IMG/VR virus record: IMGVR_UViG_3300032086_001156
Span: 1 to 64,000 of that record
Length of the DNA: 64,000 nucleotides
From: a virus
Direction: 5' to 3' (one strand)
This document shows positions 1 through 43,661 of the stretch, in pieces; within the stretch, counting starts at the first letter, position 1; each line of letters begins with the position of its first letter. The notes under the pieces are model-generated. The model had not been told where the DNA came from and did not search any database. It saw nothing but the letters and a program-made list of their open reading frames with translations. A program made the position numbers and the translations under genes.

Positions 1-395
1 AATCCTTTCAGTCCTTGTTGATACATTCCTAGATTCGTTCTTAGGAATTCTATCGGTATATGTTTGGTCACTCGTATGTCGTACTCTGTCGGTGGTTCAA
101 ATATATTGTTGGTGTCTTGGTATTCACTCTCTTGTATCGTGTCCATCCATATGGTGAAGTCTGCATCGATGATACGTCTTGTCTCATAGAGAGGACTGAT
201 GAAGTCCATAATACCGAAGTCATAAAAAGACATTCGATAAGACTGTCTCATACGTCCTTCTTTACTAAAATCCCAATCGTTACACTTCTCTCGAAGAGTG
301 TCGGCATTGTAGTGTGGGACTAGGAAATGATAGGAGAGTTCTCTACTGATGGTCGACTTACCACTGTTAGGTAAACCCATGACCAGTACCTTCAT
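1..395 (-). CDS. Adenylylsulfate (APS) kinase-like P-loop kinase, 3' end cut by window edge
   Basis: 131 residues are visible from an ATG at 395. A Walker A motif (GLPNSGKST) starts at residue 7. It is followed by NADTLRE near residue 30 and NDWDFSKEGRMRQ near 38-50, a combination typical of CysC-type APS kinases, which phosphorylate APS to PAPS. The C-terminal part lies outside the window, so a bifunctional form cannot be excluded. The start overlaps the stop of the upstream small gene (ATGA). A sulfotransferase-like gene lies about 0.9 kb upstream in the same run of genes, which suggests that PAPS made here is used by the phage. Another small nucleotide kinase is the main alternative. Confidence 0.7.
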   Translation of the reverse strand, partial: MKVLVMGLPNSGKSTISRELSYHFLVPHYNADTLREKCNDWDFSKEGRMRQSYRMSFYDFGIMDFISPLYETRRIIDADFTIWMDTIQESEYQDTNNIFEPPTEYDIRVTKHIPIEFLRTNLGMYQQGLKG

Positions 396-532
396 CTGTC
401 TAGTCTTTTTCTTGTCTCTCGTATAATAAAGTCTTCGTATTCACGTTTTGCAGTCTTCTTACCACTCATATATGAGAAGTAAACACATGATGCAATGAAG
501 ACGATGTGTATCAAATATAGTTCAGTTGTCAT
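392..532 (-). CDS. Small membrane protein, 46 aa
   Basis: Short ORF with one hydrophobic segment at about residues 4-20 followed by a charged tail rich in Lys, Arg and Glu. The ATG overlaps the stop of the upstream gene and its TGA overlaps the ATG of the kinase-like gene. This tight coupling is the main support for it being real. I do not recognise a family. Confidence 0.6.
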   Translation of the reverse strand: MTTELYLIHIVFIASCVYFSYMSGKKTAKREYEDFIIRETRKRLDR

Positions 533-729
533 TCAGACTCCTTATGTAGTTTTGTCACGAAATCGATTACCTGTTTCCTTGTATACCATTCACTATTATA
601 TAGTGTTACACTTCCTGTACGGGTGTTGGTGACAATGTATCGGTCATAGATATACTGTGCAATGCAATCAGAAAAGTTCGTCTCCTTCTCTATTTTAAAG
701 TGTCCTAACATACTCTCTAGTATTCTCAT
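529..729 (-). CDS. Hypothetical protein, 66 aa
   Basis: No recognised domain. A soluble, mixed-charge protein with several Tyr residues. It sits in a chain of genes joined by 4-nt ATGA overlaps (stop shared with the next start), so it is probably translated by coupling. The start at 729 overlaps the upstream stop at 726. Confidence 0.6.
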   Translation of the reverse strand: MRILESMLGHFKIEKETNFSDCIAQYIYDRYIVTNTRTGSVTLYNSEWYTRKQVIDFVTKLHKESE

Positions 730-1025
730 AATAATATATTCTCCACAAAGTTACGTAATAAAAACAATAGTCCGACACCGTTAAGAATGATTAGAGCTCT
801 ATCGTTCCATAGTATCGATACCCACAACCATAGTGCAATACCGATGATGGATAGTGACAAGTCGTACATGACGAACTCTTCTACACCTCTCATACTCATG
901 GCAATCATCACAAACACGGATGCAACCCATTTCACGTACCAGTCAAGTGTATACTTAGGAGTTGCACTCTTAAATATACGTTTACTGTTCTCTATCTCTT
1001 CTTTACTAAACTTTATGTCACTCAT
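726..1025 (-). CDS. Small multi-pass membrane protein, 99 aa
   Basis: After a charged N-terminus of about 25 residues come three or four hydrophobic stretches (about 30-45, 52-70 and 76-98) with little else. Function unknown. Overlaps both neighbours by 4 nt. Confidence 0.65.
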   Translation of the reverse strand: MSDIKFSKEEIENSKRIFKSATPKYTLDWYVKWVASVFVMIAMSMRGVEEFVMYDLSLSIIGIALWLWVSILWNDRALIILNGVGLLFLLRNFVENILL

Positions 1026-1285
1026 CGTTTCTTTATCTTGTATTTGTCTTGTGTTGGTATCTTACGTGTTTCTAGTGTCTCTTTGATATAGTCCTTGAAC
1101 ATGTCTGCACCTTTAAACTGTGGTGGTGGATAGAGAGTGTCCTCATTCTGCATGAAAAATAGACACATCATTGCAACATCTCTGAACTCTACTGCAACAC
1201 CATTGAACAGTAGTATCTTATCATCGGGGTGTTTCTTACCTTGCACCCACTGAAATTTGTCCCAATTCTTTATATCGTTACTCAT
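1022..1285 (-). CDS. Hypothetical protein, 87 aa
   Basis: Soluble protein with a basic C-terminus and no recognised domain. I chose the ATG at 1285, which overlaps the upstream TGA (ATGA). A longer reading frame to 1312 would run into the sulfotransferase-like gene. Confidence 0.55.
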   Translation of the reverse strand: MSNDIKNWDKFQWVQGKKHPDDKILLFNGVAVEFRDVAMMCLFFMQNEDTLYPPPQFKGADMFKDYIKETLETRKIPTQDKYKIKKR

Positions 1286-1980
1286 AGTTTTACTGGTTGG
1301 TATCCTAACCATTTGAAGTCTTGGGCAAAGTCATATGATATCATATCATACTCTTCATGTGTGAGTCGATACTTTAGACGATTTGGTGTGACGTTTTGTG
1401 CATCGTCCATGTCAAACTCATAGTGTGCAACACTCAGGAGTTTATCTACTATCTCCTCTAATTTGAAAAATGCACAATTCAACTGTTCTCCATGTTCGAA
1501 ATAACAGAACTTATATTGATGAACACCATACACTGTCTGTAAGAATCTCTTTCTATTGACAGCGTAACCTTTGTCCCATCCTAGTGTCGGGTGTGCTTTA
1601 TGAAGTGCATATAATGATGACACTACTCTCTTATAGGGGTTTCTGACAACACAGAACTTCTGACATCCTTCCACATTTGCAAGAATCTCATTATAAAACT
1701 TTGGTTTGTTGTCCTTATACCATTCAACTGGTTTACCATAACCGAATTTGAGTATCTCTGACTTAGATGCAGCTGCATTGGTCTTCATAAACTCTTGTAT
1801 ACTAACCAACACTGTTTGAGTTGCACAACGTGGTGGTGATAATATCAATAGTTCATCCCATCGATATGAGTTGATTCTACGTGGGTCTTGTCCCCATTCG
1901 AATGCATCAGAATTAAACTGAGGTAACTCAGCTATTCGTGCTTTCTCTTCCTTTGTATAGTTACGTCTTACGTAAAACAT
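1282..1980 (-). CDS. Sulfotransferase-like protein
   Basis: 232 residues. LSPPRCATQT at about residues 47-56 corresponds to the PAPS 5'-phosphosulfate loop. CVVRNPYKRVVSSLYA at about 110-125 is the typical 3'-phosphate-binding segment (RNPYxRxVS). Such enzymes transfer sulfate from PAPS to a hydroxyl or amine acceptor; the acceptor here is unknown. Together with the APS-kinase-like gene at the left edge it could form a small sulfation pathway. A divergent homologue with another substrate is possible. The frame overlaps the nuclease gene upstream by 20 nt. Confidence 0.7.
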   Translation of the reverse strand: MFYVRRNYTKEEKARIAELPQFNSDAFEWGQDPRRINSYRWDELLILSPPRCATQTVLVSIQEFMKTNAAASKSEILKFGYGKPVEWYKDNKPKFYNEILANVEGCQKFCVVRNPYKRVVSSLYALHKAHPTLGWDKGYAVNRKRFLQTVYGVHQYKFCYFEHGEQLNCAFFKLEEIVDKLLSVAHYEFDMDDAQNVTPNRLKYRLTHEEYDMISYDFAQDFKWLGYQPVKL

Positions 1981-2296
1981 CTAAAAATCTCTCTGCATCA
2001 ATTACGACTAATGGTTTCTTACCATTCTTCTTCATGACAACAATAGGTTCATAGTCACCACTGTTCTCACATGCTTGGTTATATGCATCCCAAACATTTA
2101 ATTTTTCTTGATTCTTACATTCTACACTATATGGGAAGATTTGTCTAGACTGTTTTCCTAAAATAATGTCCTCACCTTGAGAACCCATAGGTCTTGATTC
2201 TAAATCTTCGGGGTCTAGGTCGAGATGTTCTACTAGTTTATTTGCAAACCACTGTTGTAGTCTACGACCTTTTGCTTTTGCACTTGATGTTTTCAT
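1961..2296 (-). CDS. PD-(D/E)xK nuclease-like protein (Holliday-junction-resolvase-like)
   Basis: 111 residues. The N-terminus is KAKGRRLQQW. SRPMGSQGEDI at about 35-45 supplies the acidic residue, and VECKNQE near 58-64 gives the ExK part of the PD-(D/E)xK core. Small nucleases of this type are common in T4-like marine phages and may act in recombination or DNA packaging. The exact substrate cannot be read from sequence. Confidence 0.65.
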   Translation of the reverse strand: MKTSSAKAKGRRLQQWFANKLVEHLDLDPEDLESRPMGSQGEDIILGKQSRQIFPYSVECKNQEKLNVWDAYNQACENSGDYEPIVVMKKNGKKPLVVIDAERFLDVLRKT

Positions 2297-2444
2297 AATA
2301 TTTTAAACTGCAATATGCATCACAGAATACCTTTACACTTCCATTTTGTATCGGGGTGTGATACTTTATCTCTTCACGTTTTAGTTGATTGTTACACACG
2401 TAACATCTAATCGTCTCGTGTGTCTCGTCTATTGTCGTCATCAT
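2262..2444 (-). CDS. Small zinc-finger-like protein, 60 aa
   Basis: Contains CYVC and CDAYC, a CxxC...CxxxC pair that could hold one zinc ion. The gene overlaps the end of the upstream oxygenase by 38 nt. Two ATGs, at 2444 and 2441, are both possible. An extension to 2519 would add another CxxC but would overlap far more. Function unknown. Confidence 0.5.
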   Translation of the reverse strand: MMTTIDETHETIRCYVCNNQLKREEIKYHTPIQNGSVKVFCDAYCSLKYYENIKCKSKRS

Positions 2445-3141
2445 GGTAACGTCTCTCGGGATACAAGAAGTACACTTGACTGTATCTCCAGTTGTTCTTA
2501 TAATGTTCGTAATCGTCAATCACTGCACCATGCATTCTGTTACCAGCAAAGATGACTGCACGATTGAATTTGTGTTTCATTTTTCGAACTGTTTTGTGTA
2601 CGTTAGGGTCAAAGTCAAACATGAGGTTTTCATGTTCTTTGTTGTCGGGGAAATTACCCTCATAGATGTCTGTTCCACCATTACCATCTTTGTCCATAAA
2701 CACGATTAGGTTGAGAACTGAATGGTCATCAGGTGTTCTCATATCGTCATCTAAGTGTGGGAAGTGTTGTTCGGTTGGTTTAAAATCCTTGAGAGCTCTA
2801 AAACAGTTGAACTCGAACACTTGGTCGAACTGATAGTTTCCTTTCCAAAAGTGTCGTCTACAAGTGTCTAGGATACTACCGAAATAGTTTTCTGTGTTTT
2901 GTTTCAGACCATATGACCATGAGTGAATCAAACGACAATCATCATAATCAATACCATTTCTTGTGTTATCCTCATCGAGGTATTTCCATCTTGGGTAGTC
3001 TTGTTGTTGCAACCACTCATAGATTGCATCGGGGTCGTCATAGAAGTTGTCTATGGTAATGGTCTTGTTATCTCCGTCCCAGTTTACATCCCACTCGGGT
3101 GCAAATTGAAATAGTGTATCGAAATTAATTGGTTCTTTCAT
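2407..3141 (-). CDS. 2OG-Fe(II) oxygenase-like protein
   Basis: 244 residues from the ATG at 3141. HLDDD (HxD iron ligands, mid-protein), a distal His in RMHGAVID and a following Arg in RYSQVYF match the HxD...H...R facial triad and 2-oxoglutarate site of non-haem dioxygenases. Substrate unknown. The C-terminus is highly charged, rich in Asp and Arg. A frame extension to 3171 (MKRNL) would increase overlap with the upstream gene. Confidence 0.6.
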   Translation of the reverse strand: MKEPINFDTLFQFAPEWDVNWDGDNKTITIDNFYDDPDAIYEWLQQQDYPRWKYLDEDNTRNGIDYDDCRLIHSWSYGLKQNTENYFGSILDTCRRHFWKGNYQFDQVFEFNCFRALKDFKPTEQHFPHLDDDMRTPDDHSVLNLIVFMDKDGNGGTDIYEGNFPDNKEHENLMFDFDPNVHKTVRKMKHKFNRAVIFAGNRMHGAVIDDYEHYKNNWRYSQVYFLYPERRYHDDDNRRDTRDD

Positions 3142-4189
3142 TTTTTCTTTTTTCCTCAAGTTCCTCTTCATGTTCTTGCATCAATTGTTCATATGATTTG
3201 TCTGATTCATTGATTGGTCTTGGATTGTGATGTGCAAGATTAAATGAGAGAGAAATACGTTCATAGTTTTCACTGTATCCTTCCTCTGATTGACCCTCTA
3301 CACCATGATATAACCATGAAGGCCATAATAGGAAATCCATACAATTCGGATGTATATGTAACTCATGTGTAAAACCACTGGTACCCAACCTACATGCTTT
3401 GTTAGTACTCAACTCAGGTGAGTCATATTTGAGTTCAACATTCTTGTATTCTAACTCATTCATCTTCATTGCCATTTGAGCTTGTGGGTTGACAAATTTG
3501 ATAGGCATGTCATTGTTCCCATCTGCCTTGATGTACCATGTTCCACTGATTGTAGAACCATTATGAATATGATAGTTGTGAGAGTTTCTTCCTTGATATC
3601 TATTGACCCATGCAAACAAATGAACGTGTTCATCGTCTGCAATATAATCATCCCATACATGTTCCATATATTCTCTATATGTCTGTTTGATATTCATCTC
3701 GAAGTCTTTGTACCACTGCATCTCATACATCATTGCACGTGCTTTCTTAGAGAAGTATGTGGTGTAACACTCATCTAAACGTGGGTGTGTTTCTTTAACC
3801 ACGTCAGTCAATTTTCTGATATCCCTTATGACATCATCTCTATTGCAAGTGTCAATTACACCCTTAAACATTGGTGTTTCAAATATAGGAAACAATTCAC
3901 CTTTATATGGTCTCTGATTTTCCAACACAGGAACTTCCATAGGGTTATCACCCTGTGCAGCGTGTGGTGGTTTTTTACCCAACACTGGTGGTGGAGTGTA
4001 TGTGTGAATTGGTTTTTCCTCTATACGAGGTGGTGTTTGGATTGGTGCATCTTCAGGTACATCTGCTGGAATCTCATGTTCTACATCCAGTGATTTGATG
4101 AGTGATTCTCTCTCACTTTGGAGTTCTCTATCTGAAGGTGTGACTGTTCTCAATGATGGTCTTTCATCGTTGGGTTTTCTAGATAACAT
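3125..4189 (-). CDS. 2OG-Fe(II) oxygenase with proline-rich N-terminal extension
   Basis: 354 residues. The first 95 or so are proline-rich and probably disordered. The second half has YHIHNGSTISGTWYI, WPSWLYHGV and ERISLSFNLA, the pattern of the putative 2OG-Fe(II) oxygenase family common in marine phages (SG.wY, PswlxH, RxSxxFN). A long charged tail follows. Substrate unknown. It follows the spanin pair directly, sharing a base with the stop of the o-spanin candidate. Confidence 0.7.
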   Translation of the reverse strand: MLSRKPNDERPSLRTVTPSDRELQSERESLIKSLDVEHEIPADVPEDAPIQTPPRIEEKPIHTYTPPPVLGKKPPHAAQGDNPMEVPVLENQRPYKGELFPIFETPMFKGVIDTCNRDDVIRDIRKLTDVVKETHPRLDECYTTYFSKKARAMMYEMQWYKDFEMNIKQTYREYMEHVWDDYIADDEHVHLFAWVNRYQGRNSHNYHIHNGSTISGTWYIKADGNNDMPIKFVNPQAQMAMKMNELEYKNVELKYDSPELSTNKACRLGTSGFTHELHIHPNCMDFLLWPSWLYHGVEGQSEEGYSENYERISLSFNLAHHNPRPINESDKSYEQLMQEHEEELEEKRKNERTN

Positions 4190-23350: not shown

Positions 23351-23358
23351 TATTTATT
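23351..23358 (-). promoter_or_regulatory. Late-type promoter box AATAAATA, leaderless
   Basis: Box, then GTATT, then the ATG at 23345. It lies over the stop of the adenylyltransferase-kinase gene. Confidence 0.5.
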
Positions 23359-24664
23359 GTTTTTTCTTTGTGAGTTCTGACTGTTTCCACTCTTGTGCTT
23401 TAGAGTTTGTAGGGAACTTAGATGTCCATGTCATCATCTTACCGAACAGTTTGTTTGCCTTAGTGTCTAGTGTTGCAAGGTCATCATCATTGACTACTTC
23501 AATGAAGTCTCTTCCAAACATCTGTTTAAATCCTTTTGCATTCTTCTCTGCATTATTCCAATCATTTACGACTATCTCGTCTCTGAGTTTTCTTGGTCTC
23601 ATCTGATTTCTTTTGAGTGCATTTTTAAGTGATGTTTTTACATAGACCATTTTGTATTCATATCCTGCTTGGTCTAGTAAATCTTTATAATCTTGAATCT
23701 TAGATTTCTTTGCAGCTGTAGTGTCAAATATCATACCTAATCTTCCGTTGATATATGCACCCATTTGTTTACCTGTAATCTTCTTTGCTTTTGCTCTGAT
23801 AGGTGCATAGTCATCATCAGATGCTTTTCTTAAATCCAATGACATACCTGCTTTCTTCAGACCATTCTCAAATGCTCTATCAGTGTTTACTAGTTTTAAT
23901 CCTAGTGATGGTAGTGCAAGTTTATCAACTACAGTTGACTTACCTGACCCTGGCCCACCCATTAAGAACACTGCCTTAAAGATACCTTGGTCATACACTC
24001 CTTCTGTTAACACTCCCTCTTTTAACATATCGTTAATCATATAATGAGGAAAATCTGTGACCTCTTTGATACCCATTCCCTTTCGAACTGCATCATATAA
24101 TTTCTTTGCAATTCTTTTACCTGTTGATGGAACACCATCTTTAAATGAATCAAAGTCACCTTTCTCTGCAAACATTCTCATCTTACTTGCAGACATTCCA
24201 CTGACATCATCTGAATCGGGGTCTCTTTCCCCTGCTGATACAACTGCAATATCATCAAACTTATAGAAACCGTGTCTACCTTTTACACTATTGTATTTTG
24301 TGATTATGTTTTTAAATTCTGCAATCCTATCTGACCCCACAATCATGACGATGTTTCTGTATCCTTTGTCATAAAGGAATACTAGGATTTGGAATATTTG
24401 TCTTACGTCTTCGTTTACTACGTTTACTTTTCTACCAAAGAATGCTTTCAAGAACTTGACCTTGTCTTTATGAGTCAATGGATTCTTTACTTTATCACTA
24501 GAGTGTGATGAGAAGAGGATGGGGTCTCCTCCTACTGACTTTGACACTTTGACCATTCGGTCTACAAGTTTTTCGTGTCCATTTGTAGGTGGGTTGAAAC
24601 GACCAAAAGTGAACACTGCTGGATTACTTTTTGCCTCTGATAAAAATTTGGTAAACGTTTTCAT
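23354..24664 (-). CDS. Nucleotidyltransferase-kinase (NadR-like), with capsid-targeting N-terminus
   Basis: 436 residues. The N-terminus MKTFTKFLSEA matches a T4 capsid-targeting signal. The first domain has FGRFNPPTNGHEKLV (the HxGH-class motif written NGH, about 20-34) and SASKMR near 165, as in NMN or cytidylyl transferases. The second domain starts at about 232 with Walker A GGPGSGKST. The layout resembles NadR, an NMN adenylyltransferase fused to a nucleoside kinase, but the substrate is not certain. It lies inside the internal-protein block. Confidence 0.65.
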   Translation of the reverse strand: MKTFTKFLSEAKSNPAVFTFGRFNPPTNGHEKLVDRMVKVSKSVGGDPILFSSHSSDKVKNPLTHKDKVKFLKAFFGRKVNVVNEDVRQIFQILVFLYDKGYRNIVMIVGSDRIAEFKNIITKYNSVKGRHGFYKFDDIAVVSAGERDPDSDDVSGMSASKMRMFAEKGDFDSFKDGVPSTGKRIAKKLYDAVRKGMGIKEVTDFPHYMINDMLKEGVLTEGVYDQGIFKAVFLMGGPGSGKSTVVDKLALPSLGLKLVNTDRAFENGLKKAGMSLDLRKASDDDYAPIRAKAKKITGKQMGAYINGRLGMIFDTTAAKKSKIQDYKDLLDQAGYEYKMVYVKTSLKNALKRNQMRPRKLRDEIVVNDWNNAEKNAKGFKQMFGRDFIEVVNDDDLATLDTKANKLFGKMMTWTSKFPTNSKAQEWKQSELTKKKQ

Positions 24665-41798: not shown

Positions 41799-43661
41799 TT
41801 AGATGGTGGTTCCCTTAGATTCCATTGGAGTGAAGATACGTACTTTCTCTGATTTTCCCTTAACGAGAATTCTGTCGACTTCAGAAAATGCTCTTGATGA
41901 ACACTGTCTATAAGTGTCTTCCGATAACAACACGTCCACCCCATCATAATTTCTTGTTTGTCCCTCGAGTCTAGCTCCAAGGTTGACGGCATCTCCAATG
42001 ACGGAATAGTCAAATCTAAGTTCTGACCCCATGTTTCCGACAATACAGGTTCCTGTGGAAATGCCGATGCCGACATTAATAGGAGGAAGATTGAGAGGAG
42101 ATAATTCTTCATTGAGTTTTTTGGTTGCTTCTAATATTTCTAGTGATGACTTAACTGCTAATTCAGCATGGTCGGGACAATCCAGTGGTGCATTCCAAAA
42201 ACTCATAATACAATCACCCATGTATTTGTCTATAGTACCCTTATTATTTAGGATTATCTTCGTCTGCATATCAAGAAACTTATTGACTAATTCAACTAAT
42301 CCTTCGGGGTCATCATTGTTCTTGTAGTGTTCACTGATTGGAGTGAATCCACAGATGTCCATGAACATGAATGTCATCTCTTTTCTCTCTCCACCTAACT
42401 TCAATTTCGATGGGTCTTCTGCAAGTTGGTCAACCATATCGGGTGATAAATACTTTTGGAACTGCTTCTTAATTTGTTCTTTGAGTTGATAAGTTGTATA
42501 GTATTTGTTGAAAGATGCATGTCCAAAAACTATCAAGGAGGCTACCGATGAAAAAAAGGTATCGAAAAGAACGTAACTTGAAGTCCATAACCAATATCCC
42601 CCATACCCCTGAAGACCTACTATTCCTAAAGAGACTAGAGCCGCAAGAGTTGTGGGAACATTGTAGACCACTAGAAGAGTCACTAGAAGGACTGACACCA
42701 AAAGAACAATTTCTAAGAATTCAAGATAGTAGGATTGTTGTATTTGAACTCCTGTCAAAACGGTTTGAAGGAGAGAGGCTTGAACTTCGTGGGGATACAT
42801 TACACCCACTGGGGTTGAAACTGGATTATTCAAACCCTCTGCAGTCAGACCATAGATTAGAATCTTATTCTGAATATCTGAATTAGGTAAATCTGCAAAA
42901 GAGATTGAAGGGAAATGATTCCAATATGATATCATTACATCTGCAGTGGATGTTGTCTCAATAGGTTTCTCTCTACCCATTCTAATCCACTCTATACCTG
43001 TCTCGGGTGTAACCCTAGTTTGGTAGTTGGGTTGGTCATAAAATGCTCTGAGAGTCTCTAAAACTACACTCGGATACACTACGTCATTTGCAGTAACTAA
43101 GAGTGGTGCAGAACGTACCGTACCGTCAAAATTGGGCGTCCCTGAGACTGATGGAGTTGCAACCGTAACCCCGACCCCATATGTGTTATTCATCAGCGTA
43201 TCGACAGGATTTAAAATTCCATCGTAATTCCATGCATGAAGTGTAATATCTCCACCACCAAATACACTTGTTCTAACATATGGTGCAGAACCTGTATCCT
43301 TTTGTGTCGTGGGTGCAGCTCCTAAAATTGATAAACGATTTACTAATCCATCTGCAAATACTTCATCACCACCAAACCTGTCGGGTTCTGAAAAAATAAT
43401 TGAAAAAACATGAGTGTTAGTGTGATGAGTGTCCCATAGTGTATCACCATAAACATCTCTAGGGAATGGATACTGTCCGTACTTGTCTATAGATTTCTCA
43501 TCTATATTGACTAGAACAATATCGTCTACGTGTATTTCTTCGTGTTGTTGATGTAGAAAATCAAACCATGACCACTGTATATTCTCTACGATATAGGGAT
43601 TCCATATTTTAACACCGACTAATAATCCTATCGTTATTAAGACGGTTTTCCAACTATACAT
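41799..43661 (-). CDS. CHASE2-domain membrane adenylate cyclase (class III)
   Basis: 620 residues. An N-terminal membrane anchor, then an extracytoplasmic CHASE2 sensor (about 30-300, with LVNIDEKSIDKYG and PFPRD), three membrane segments (about 310-390), and a cytoplasmic cyclase domain (about 430-610). FMFMDICGFT and YMGDCIMSFW give the two metal-binding Asp, the Lys in IDKYMGD and the Asp in FDYSVIGDA are the adenine-selecting pair, and NLGARLEG gives the catalytic Asn and Arg. All catalytic residues are present, so it should make cAMP in response to an outside signal. It lies downstream of FecR and curlin genes, a neighbourhood usual in bacteria but not in phages. Confidence 0.88.
   Translation of the reverse strand: MYSWKTVLITIGLLVGVKIWNPYIVENIQWSWFDFLHQQHEEIHVDDIVLVNIDEKSIDKYGQYPFPRDVYGDTLWDTHHTNTHVFSIIFSEPDRFGGDEVFADGLVNRLSILGAAPTTQKDTGSAPYVRTSVFGGGDITLHAWNYDGILNPVDTLMNNTYGVGVTVATPSVSGTPNFDGTVRSAPLLVTANDVVYPSVVLETLRAFYDQPNYQTRVTPETGIEWIRMGREKPIETTSTADVMISYWNHFPSISFADLPNSDIQNKILIYGLTAEGLNNPVSTPVGVMYPHEVQASLLQTVLTGVQIQQSYYLEFLEIVLLVSVLLVTLLVVYNVPTTLAALVSLGIVGLQGYGGYWLWTSSYVLFDTFFSSVASLIVFGHASFNKYYTTYQLKEQIKKQFQKYLSPDMVDQLAEDPSKLKLGGERKEMTFMFMDICGFTPISEHYKNNDDPEGLVELVNKFLDMQTKIILNNKGTIDKYMGDCIMSFWNAPLDCPDHAELAVKSSLEILEATKKLNEELSPLNLPPINVGIGISTGTCIVGNMGSELRFDYSVIGDAVNLGARLEGQTRNYDGVDVLLSEDTYRQCSSRAFSEVDRILVKGKSEKVRIFTPMESKGTTI

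Follow-up and report, generated by a model that had tools for sequence, protein, structure and literature searches.

The APS-kinase-like gene and the sulfotransferase (ST)-like gene at the start of the window (the whole stretch of DNA analyzed, bases 1–64000 of a virus record of 65,092 bases) probably form a phage sulfation module that uses host APS, a reading whose predicted activity, acceptor, and purpose we infer from sequence comparison and structural modeling. APS would come from the host, either from ATP sulfurylase or, in SAR11-type cells, from AprBA acting on sulfite and AMP. The phage kinase would use ATP to phosphorylate the 3'-OH of APS, giving PAPS, and the ST-like enzyme would then sulfate an acceptor with the sulfuryl group of PAPS and release PAP; the most likely acceptors are glycans and other surface or virion components. 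The first-pass annotation had proposed that one gene makes PAPS and the other uses it. This is the best reading because APS-kinase homology with an APS pocket goes together with recurrent ST pairing; the proposal is supported in part, and its ST half depends on motifs and an hhalign match.

Gene layout of the kinase–ST locus

Both genes of this marine T4-like phage were found where the annotation had placed them, close together within a single series of overlapping genes that all point the same way (Table 1). The kinase frame (131 codons) is open at the contig start, and the remainder of the gene lies beyond the edge of the record. The whole gene was read in a near-identical IMG/VR contig (L004; 100% identity over the 131 aa), where its 152-aa product proved to be an APS-kinase homolog and not a member of another family. 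Four small same-strand genes (96, 99, 66, and 46 aa) separate the kinase and the ST-like gene. Successive genes overlap by a few bases throughout the run, down to an ATGA in which the stop of the 46-aa gene overlaps the kinase start, so that the kinase-to-ST set looks like a single transcription unit. The arrangement is syntenic in L004 (ST–kinase gap of 890 bp), and a 135-kb relative (L005) preserves the gene order and orientation of the pair, with identities of 87% for the kinase (148 aa) and 79% for the ST. Co-occurrence in relatives, suggested earlier as a check, was thus observed in both contigs, and the ST–kinase association recurs in independent phages.

Table 1. Features of the kinase–ST gene run and its upstream neighbors in the window.
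Feature	Position	Strand	Remarks
APS-kinase-like P-loop kinase, N-terminal 131 of 152 aa	3..395	-	Complete copy L004:10001-10459; PDB profile and AF2
46-aa small protein, hydrophobic N-terminus	392..532	-	Stop overlaps kinase start (ATGA)
66-aa protein, no function assigned	529..729	-	Kept in L004 and L005
99-aa DUF6552 membrane-like protein	726..1025	-	PF20189, E 2.6e-18
96-aa protein, no function assigned	1022..1312	-	Overlaps ST gene
Sulfotransferase-like protein, 232 aa	1282..1980	-	5'-PSB-like at ~residues 47-56; 3'-PB-like R113...S121
RusA-like/PDDEXK nuclease	1961..2296	-	phrog_244, E 2.6e-22; same gene run, upstream
Two 2OG-Fe(II)-oxygenase-like genes upstream of the pair	2407..4189 (2407-3171, 3125-4189)	-	

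The RusA-like/PDDEXK nuclease is a neighbor outside the proposed pathway. The Pfam matches of the two 2OG-Fe(II)-oxygenase-like genes were PF13640 (E 0.003, sub-threshold) and DUF6445 (1.6e-7); PF13759 (1.2e-14).

Identity of the kinase

A profile built from 24 kinase relatives had solved APS kinases as its best matches (top 2yvu, E 6.7e-13, with many more after it). If two very long chains with many domains (adenylate kinase 9 and an entry for a ciliary protein) are set aside, the next non-APS kinases followed at about 1e-4. The AlphaFold (AF2) model of the full 152-aa kinase (pLDDT 91) had the Arabidopsis APS kinase–APS complex 3uie as its top Foldseek match (E 5.2e-6), and its 17 best structural alignments were all to APS kinases (Z 11.5–12.4). 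Gluconate kinase ranked next at Z 11.4, within 1 Z of the APS kinases, and thus the fold alone cannot decide the substrate of the kinase.

The likeness to APS kinase (CysC; PF01583; M. tuberculosis CysC, P. chrysogenum) comprises the P-loop kinase fold (Z up to 12.4) and the residues of the APS site. The P-loop GxxGxGK[ST] is present as GLPNSGKS. In M. tuberculosis CysC, APS is contacted by Asp480, Arg483, Phe492, Arg497, and Phe576 (PMC4373884). By spacing and profile alignment, D32, R35, F43, and R48 of the phage kinase correspond to Asp480, Arg483, Phe492, and Arg497, and all four were invariant among 21 aligned kinase sequences. The place of Phe576 is taken, by spacing, by another aromatic residue, Y92, which precedes F99 by seven residues, as Phe576 precedes Tyr583; the Tyr583 spacing is that of the FTGIDSPYE motif.

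The phage kinase differs from APS kinase in its length (~150 aa), in the change of LDGDN to YNADT, and above all in the lid. The lid of M. tuberculosis CysC spans residues 552–581 and includes Lys562 (APS ribose) and Arg559 (ATP adenine) (PMC4373884). Alignment against this published range indicated that the phage family lacks most of the lid, ~24 residues that would lie after the DT motif and before the second aromatic residue, and no counterparts of Lys562 or Arg559 were seen in the family alignment; because these are missing, the substrate may have changed. The window and L004 copies also scored below the PF01583 gathering cut-off (16.0 and 15.4 vs. 21.1 bits), which was exceeded by the relatives L051, L057, L058, and L281 (SAR11). 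We conclude that the gene encodes an APS-kinase homolog with a shortened lid, for which the alignments and the model predict APS activity. The kinase family contained at least ~600 confirmed viral stretches; in a tblastn search against 50,697 phage records, the kinase was found in five phages.

The sulfotransferase-like protein

A motif scan of the ST-like protein identified LSPPRCATQT (5'-PSB-like) and RNPYKRVVSSLY (3'-PB-like), and these motifs with their R-x7-S spacing resemble those of Sulfotransfer_2/Sulfotransfer_3 proteins. LSPPRC(A/G)TQT and VVRNPYKRVVSSLY are conserved between the window protein and its 79% ortholog in L005. The window protein had no Pfam, PHROG, NCBIfam, or PDB profile match, and the ortholog matched PF03567 below threshold (E 0.0038). 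In hhalign, the ST was aligned with seven phage STs, several of them recognized by Pfam, at a probability of 94.7% (E 5.7e-8) over 171 columns, in which the two PAPS-binding motifs and the C-terminal 'Df..lGY' were aligned; the window protein ends in 'Df.wlGY' as the phage STs do. It differs from the recognized phage STs in having only ~17% identity to them, in falling below the Pfam thresholds, and in its unusual 'SPPRCATQT' loop. The AF2 model, built from only two sequences, was too poor to use (pLDDT 38), and the PAPS-site residues are seen in the sequence alignment only.

The known relatives of this ST were the 79% ortholog and the near-identical contig only; a scan with the ST alignment retrieved no further relatives, and tblastn against the same 50,697 phage records gave no match. 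The assignment of the window ST, which is based on motifs and a profile–profile match, is weaker than that of the kinase. L005 carries a second ST, recognized by Pfam (PF03567, 1.3e-7), 4 kb downstream of the kinase.

Recurrent pairing of kinase and sulfotransferase genes

ST families were scanned for on ~100 kinase contigs, and the loci were then read individually. Recognized STs (PF13469 and PF03567 matches) overlapped or abutted the kinase in L047/L040, L115, L108, L034/L033, and L055 (two tandem STs), and were one gene away from it in L103 and L113. In L097, an ST-like frame with no Pfam match abuts the kinase. The kinase of L110 is surrounded by an ST, glycosyltransferases, and a carbamoyltransferase, a gene set that suggests glycan decoration. 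Genes for 2OG-oxygenases or aspartyl hydroxylases were present in L108 and L113. In the kinase tree, many forks of which are weak, the ST-paired cases occupy several distinct clades.

On the scanned kinase contigs, 12 of 34 ST places (several of the 34 weak or sub-threshold) were within 1 kb of the kinase, compared with 3.7 expected (p = 5e-5). The corresponding counts were 5 of 25 on non-redundant contigs of at least 20 kb (1.4 expected, p = 0.011) and 4 of 22 on the same set without the window lineage (1.3 expected, p = 0.03). The enrichment was not significant at a gap of 100 bp, in part because distances ran to the profile match and not to the gene end. STs above the cut-off were found on 13/50 kinase contigs and 2/50 control contigs (Fisher p = 0.0038), with densities of 6.6 and 1.3 per Mb, respectively; the controls were contigs found with the NrdA of the window, dominated by T4-like phages and not matched for phage type. 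Many kinase contigs had no nearby ST. The ST–kinase pairing is not a product of chance.

These data bear on the explanation that kinase and ST are unrelated cargo in a variable region, which would suit the four small unrelated genes between the pair and the several oxygenases and the nuclease of the region. It is contradicted by the synteny with the 135-kb relative, by the recurrence of pairs in which STs of different families abut the kinase, and by the enrichment over control contigs, and we consider such a coincidence quite improbable.

Apart from the recognized STs, two tandem ORFs at L061:1408-2905(-) looked Stf0-type-like by eye and lay at a distance of 1–3 kb from an opposite-strand kinase; a single sub-threshold Pfam match was obtained, for one ORF.

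The nucleotidyltransferase partner

A nucleotidyltransferase with the signature GRxQPWHxGH...ISATxIR accompanied the kinase in 36 of 67 viral clusters (fused in 7, overlapping in 24, and adjacent in 5) and in 75 of 80 bacterial kinase loci, with an in-frame fusion in the SAR116 locus L269. Its closest solved relatives were NadM NMN adenylyltransferases (1f9a, E 4.5e-8), and it matched NCBIfam PRK01153 (5.3e-9). The presence of this partner beside many relatives of the kinase leaves room for a substrate other than a sulfur compound.

The main rival to the sulfation module is that the kinase–nucleotidyltransferase unit makes something else, e.g., NAD. The two enzymes would serve another nucleotide pathway (nicotinamide riboside to NMN to NAD, or the activation of another metabolite), the nearness of STs would be secondary, and only the kinase would be left in the window lineage. 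The frequency of the partner in viruses and bacteria, its NMN adenylyltransferase relatives, and the lack of STs next to the SAR11 loci (L286 excepted) are all in its favor. However, it is APS kinases specifically that the kinase resembles, the phosphosulfate arginines and the adenine-stacking positions are kept, and neither the ST enrichment nor direct ST–kinase operons are predicted by this explanation. Kinase and ST are moreover kept without the nucleotidyltransferase in the window, L005, L047, L055, L108, and L115, and the stretch from VPNI to YGRxVGY looks by eye shorter than in NadM. We regard this rival pathway as unlikely.

In a search run without a positive control, the nucleotidyltransferase was not found in G000, G001, or the 135-kb G002. 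The window lineage and L010, both without it, nest in a nucleotidyltransferase-bearing clade of the kinase tree, so that it was probably lost from the window lineage. The tail of the window kinase corresponds to a kinase tail that, in L008 and other relatives, is read out of frame with the nucleotidyltransferase gene it overlaps; the tail is thus inherited, and it is the overlapping gene that disappeared. Another reading of this C-terminus, as an in-frame remnant of the nucleotidyltransferase, was rejected by frame comparison and alignment.

The overlap itself takes several forms. In L008 (10333-10438), L006–L017, L020, and L034, the C-terminus of the kinase and the start of the nucleotidyltransferase share ~100 bp in different frames, and this stretch encodes the HxGH motif and the kinase tail at once. 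The two genes are fused in frame in L057, L058, L113, L121, and L269. In L026–L032, the nucleotidyltransferase is a decayed pseudogene with in-frame stops in the GRFQP motif, and the overlapping kinase is still open.

The order of an APS-kinase-like domain followed by an HxGH nucleotidyltransferase, seen in the fused relatives L057, L058, L107, L113, L121, and L269, recalls PAPS synthetase (PAPSS), in which APS kinase is fused to ATP sulfurylase. In contrast to PAPSS, the partner is NadM-like, comprises ~110–125 aa, and has no ATP-sulfurylase domain, and it is absent from the window lineage. A compact, hitherto unrecognized PAPS synthase can tentatively be proposed, with a rather low probability: the NadM-derived enzyme would make APS and the lid-less APS kinase would convert it to PAPS, with which SAR11, SAR86, and phages would sulfate surfaces. 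SAR11 and SAR86 carry sulfotransferases, and SAR11 at least is without known ATP sulfurylases. If this proposal were true, hundreds of marine phages would use the unit, and viral 'cysC' would be a gene for sulfation and not for sulfur assimilation.

Bacterial counterparts and the source of APS

The kinase family is chromosomal in SAR86, SAR11, SAR116, and other bacteria. Of 50 kinase-bearing bacterial genomes, 45 had Sulfotransfer_3 genes, compared with 2 of 14 controls. The kinase of the SAR11 locus L286 has a Sulfotransfer_3 gene and a gene for an arylsulfotransferase as its flanking neighbors, and a Sulfotransfer_2 gene follows the kinase of the bacterial locus L263; most SAR11 and SAR86 kinase loci had no nearby ST. 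In three SAR11 loci (L281, L294, and L331), the kinase–nucleotidyltransferase pair lies beside genes for an aminomethyltransferase (GCV_T, DmdA-like), an MTHFR-like protein, a Rieske oxygenase, sulfur transport (PF04143), and SBP56 (methanethiol-oxidase family).

The first-pass annotation had asked where APS would come from in SAR11-type hosts. SAR11 has neither sat nor cysDN/HIJ, and its AprBA interconverts sulfite plus AMP and APS (PMC5069961), which makes AprBA a plausible APS source in SAR11-like hosts. In a table of the same paper, most SAR11 strains have cysC and cysQ, and cysC coincides with aprA strain by strain, to the extent that the extracted table is legible; the text of the paper counts cysC as absent, contradicting that table (PMC5069961). 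We infer that the cysC of this table is the SAR11 relative of the phage kinase; cysQ would plausibly be the PAP phosphatase that clears the by-product in SAR11-like hosts. SAR11 itself is at most a candidate host of the window phage: by their core genes, the closest named relatives were cyanophages (49–74% identity) and a single-cell marine virus. The latter, AG-345-E15, is related to the window phage in replication genes, and the kinase and ST were not found in it. The origin of PAPS in SAR11, from AprBA or from the nucleotidyltransferase partner, is a testable question that involves two small proteins.

Sulfation versus sulfate assimilation

Viral cysC genes are known in many viromes and are placed in assimilatory sulfate reduction (PMC10914622, PMC9529941). 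The structure-modeled stretches of virome cysC are similar in size (109–135 residues; PMC9529941), and the phage kinase is very probably the same kind of gene. Following published practice, the kinase would be a cysC auxiliary gene for assimilatory sulfate reduction, helping the host make sulfide and cysteine. However, PAPS_reduct/CysD/CysH (PF01507) and ATP sulfurylase (PF01747) gave no match above the cut-off on 21 kinase contigs, possibly fragments and including contigs of 135 kb and 162 kb, and the single ATP-sulfurylase profile match was sub-threshold and fell on the nucleotidyltransferase itself. Sulfate assimilation is unlikely because these genes were not found; furthermore, SAR11 carries the kinase family but lacks the rest of the pathway (PMC5069961), and the recurrent neighbors of the kinase are STs instead. 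We regard a role in assimilation as the least probable of the explanations considered.

The virome reports differ from the present analysis in that the gene was assigned to assimilatory sulfate reduction without a link to sulfotransferases; the word 'sulfotransferase' is absent from both papers (PMC10914622, PMC9529941). Phage STs are known, and their role was called unclear in a 2023 paper (PMC10580990). No literature linking viral cysC with sulfotransferases was found among open-access papers. The ST–kinase pairing is new here, as are the shortened lid and the connection with the kinase–nucleotidyltransferase unit of SAR11 and SAR86.

The finding that the kinase abuts ST genes in several unrelated phage lineages suggests that viral 'cysC' serves the sulfate decoration of molecules rather than sulfur assimilation. 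Viral cysC has been cited in support of a viral role in driving assimilatory sulfate reduction; the recurrent ST operons, together with the failure to find the other assimilation genes on the 21 kinase contigs, point instead to PAPS for sulfation. This reading would change the interpretation of a common class of viral auxiliary genes. The ST–kinase operons also give phage sulfotransferases a first functional setting.

Other genes of the window

No convincing PADLOC match indicated a defense role of the kinase or the ST. A 620-aa sensor cyclase encoded at 41799-43661(-), with CHASE2 (PF05226, 4e-30) and adenylate/guanylate cyclase (PF00211, 2.5e-18) domains, had a PADLOC match to Pycsar-type cyclases (2.7e-24) and a PHROG of its own (35576). 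A nucleotidyltransferase–kinase fusion at 23354-24664(-), with a cytidyltransferase-like N-terminus and a P-loop kinase (AAA_33/Zeta-toxin-like) C-terminus, is distinct from the APS-kinase-like gene at 3-395(-).
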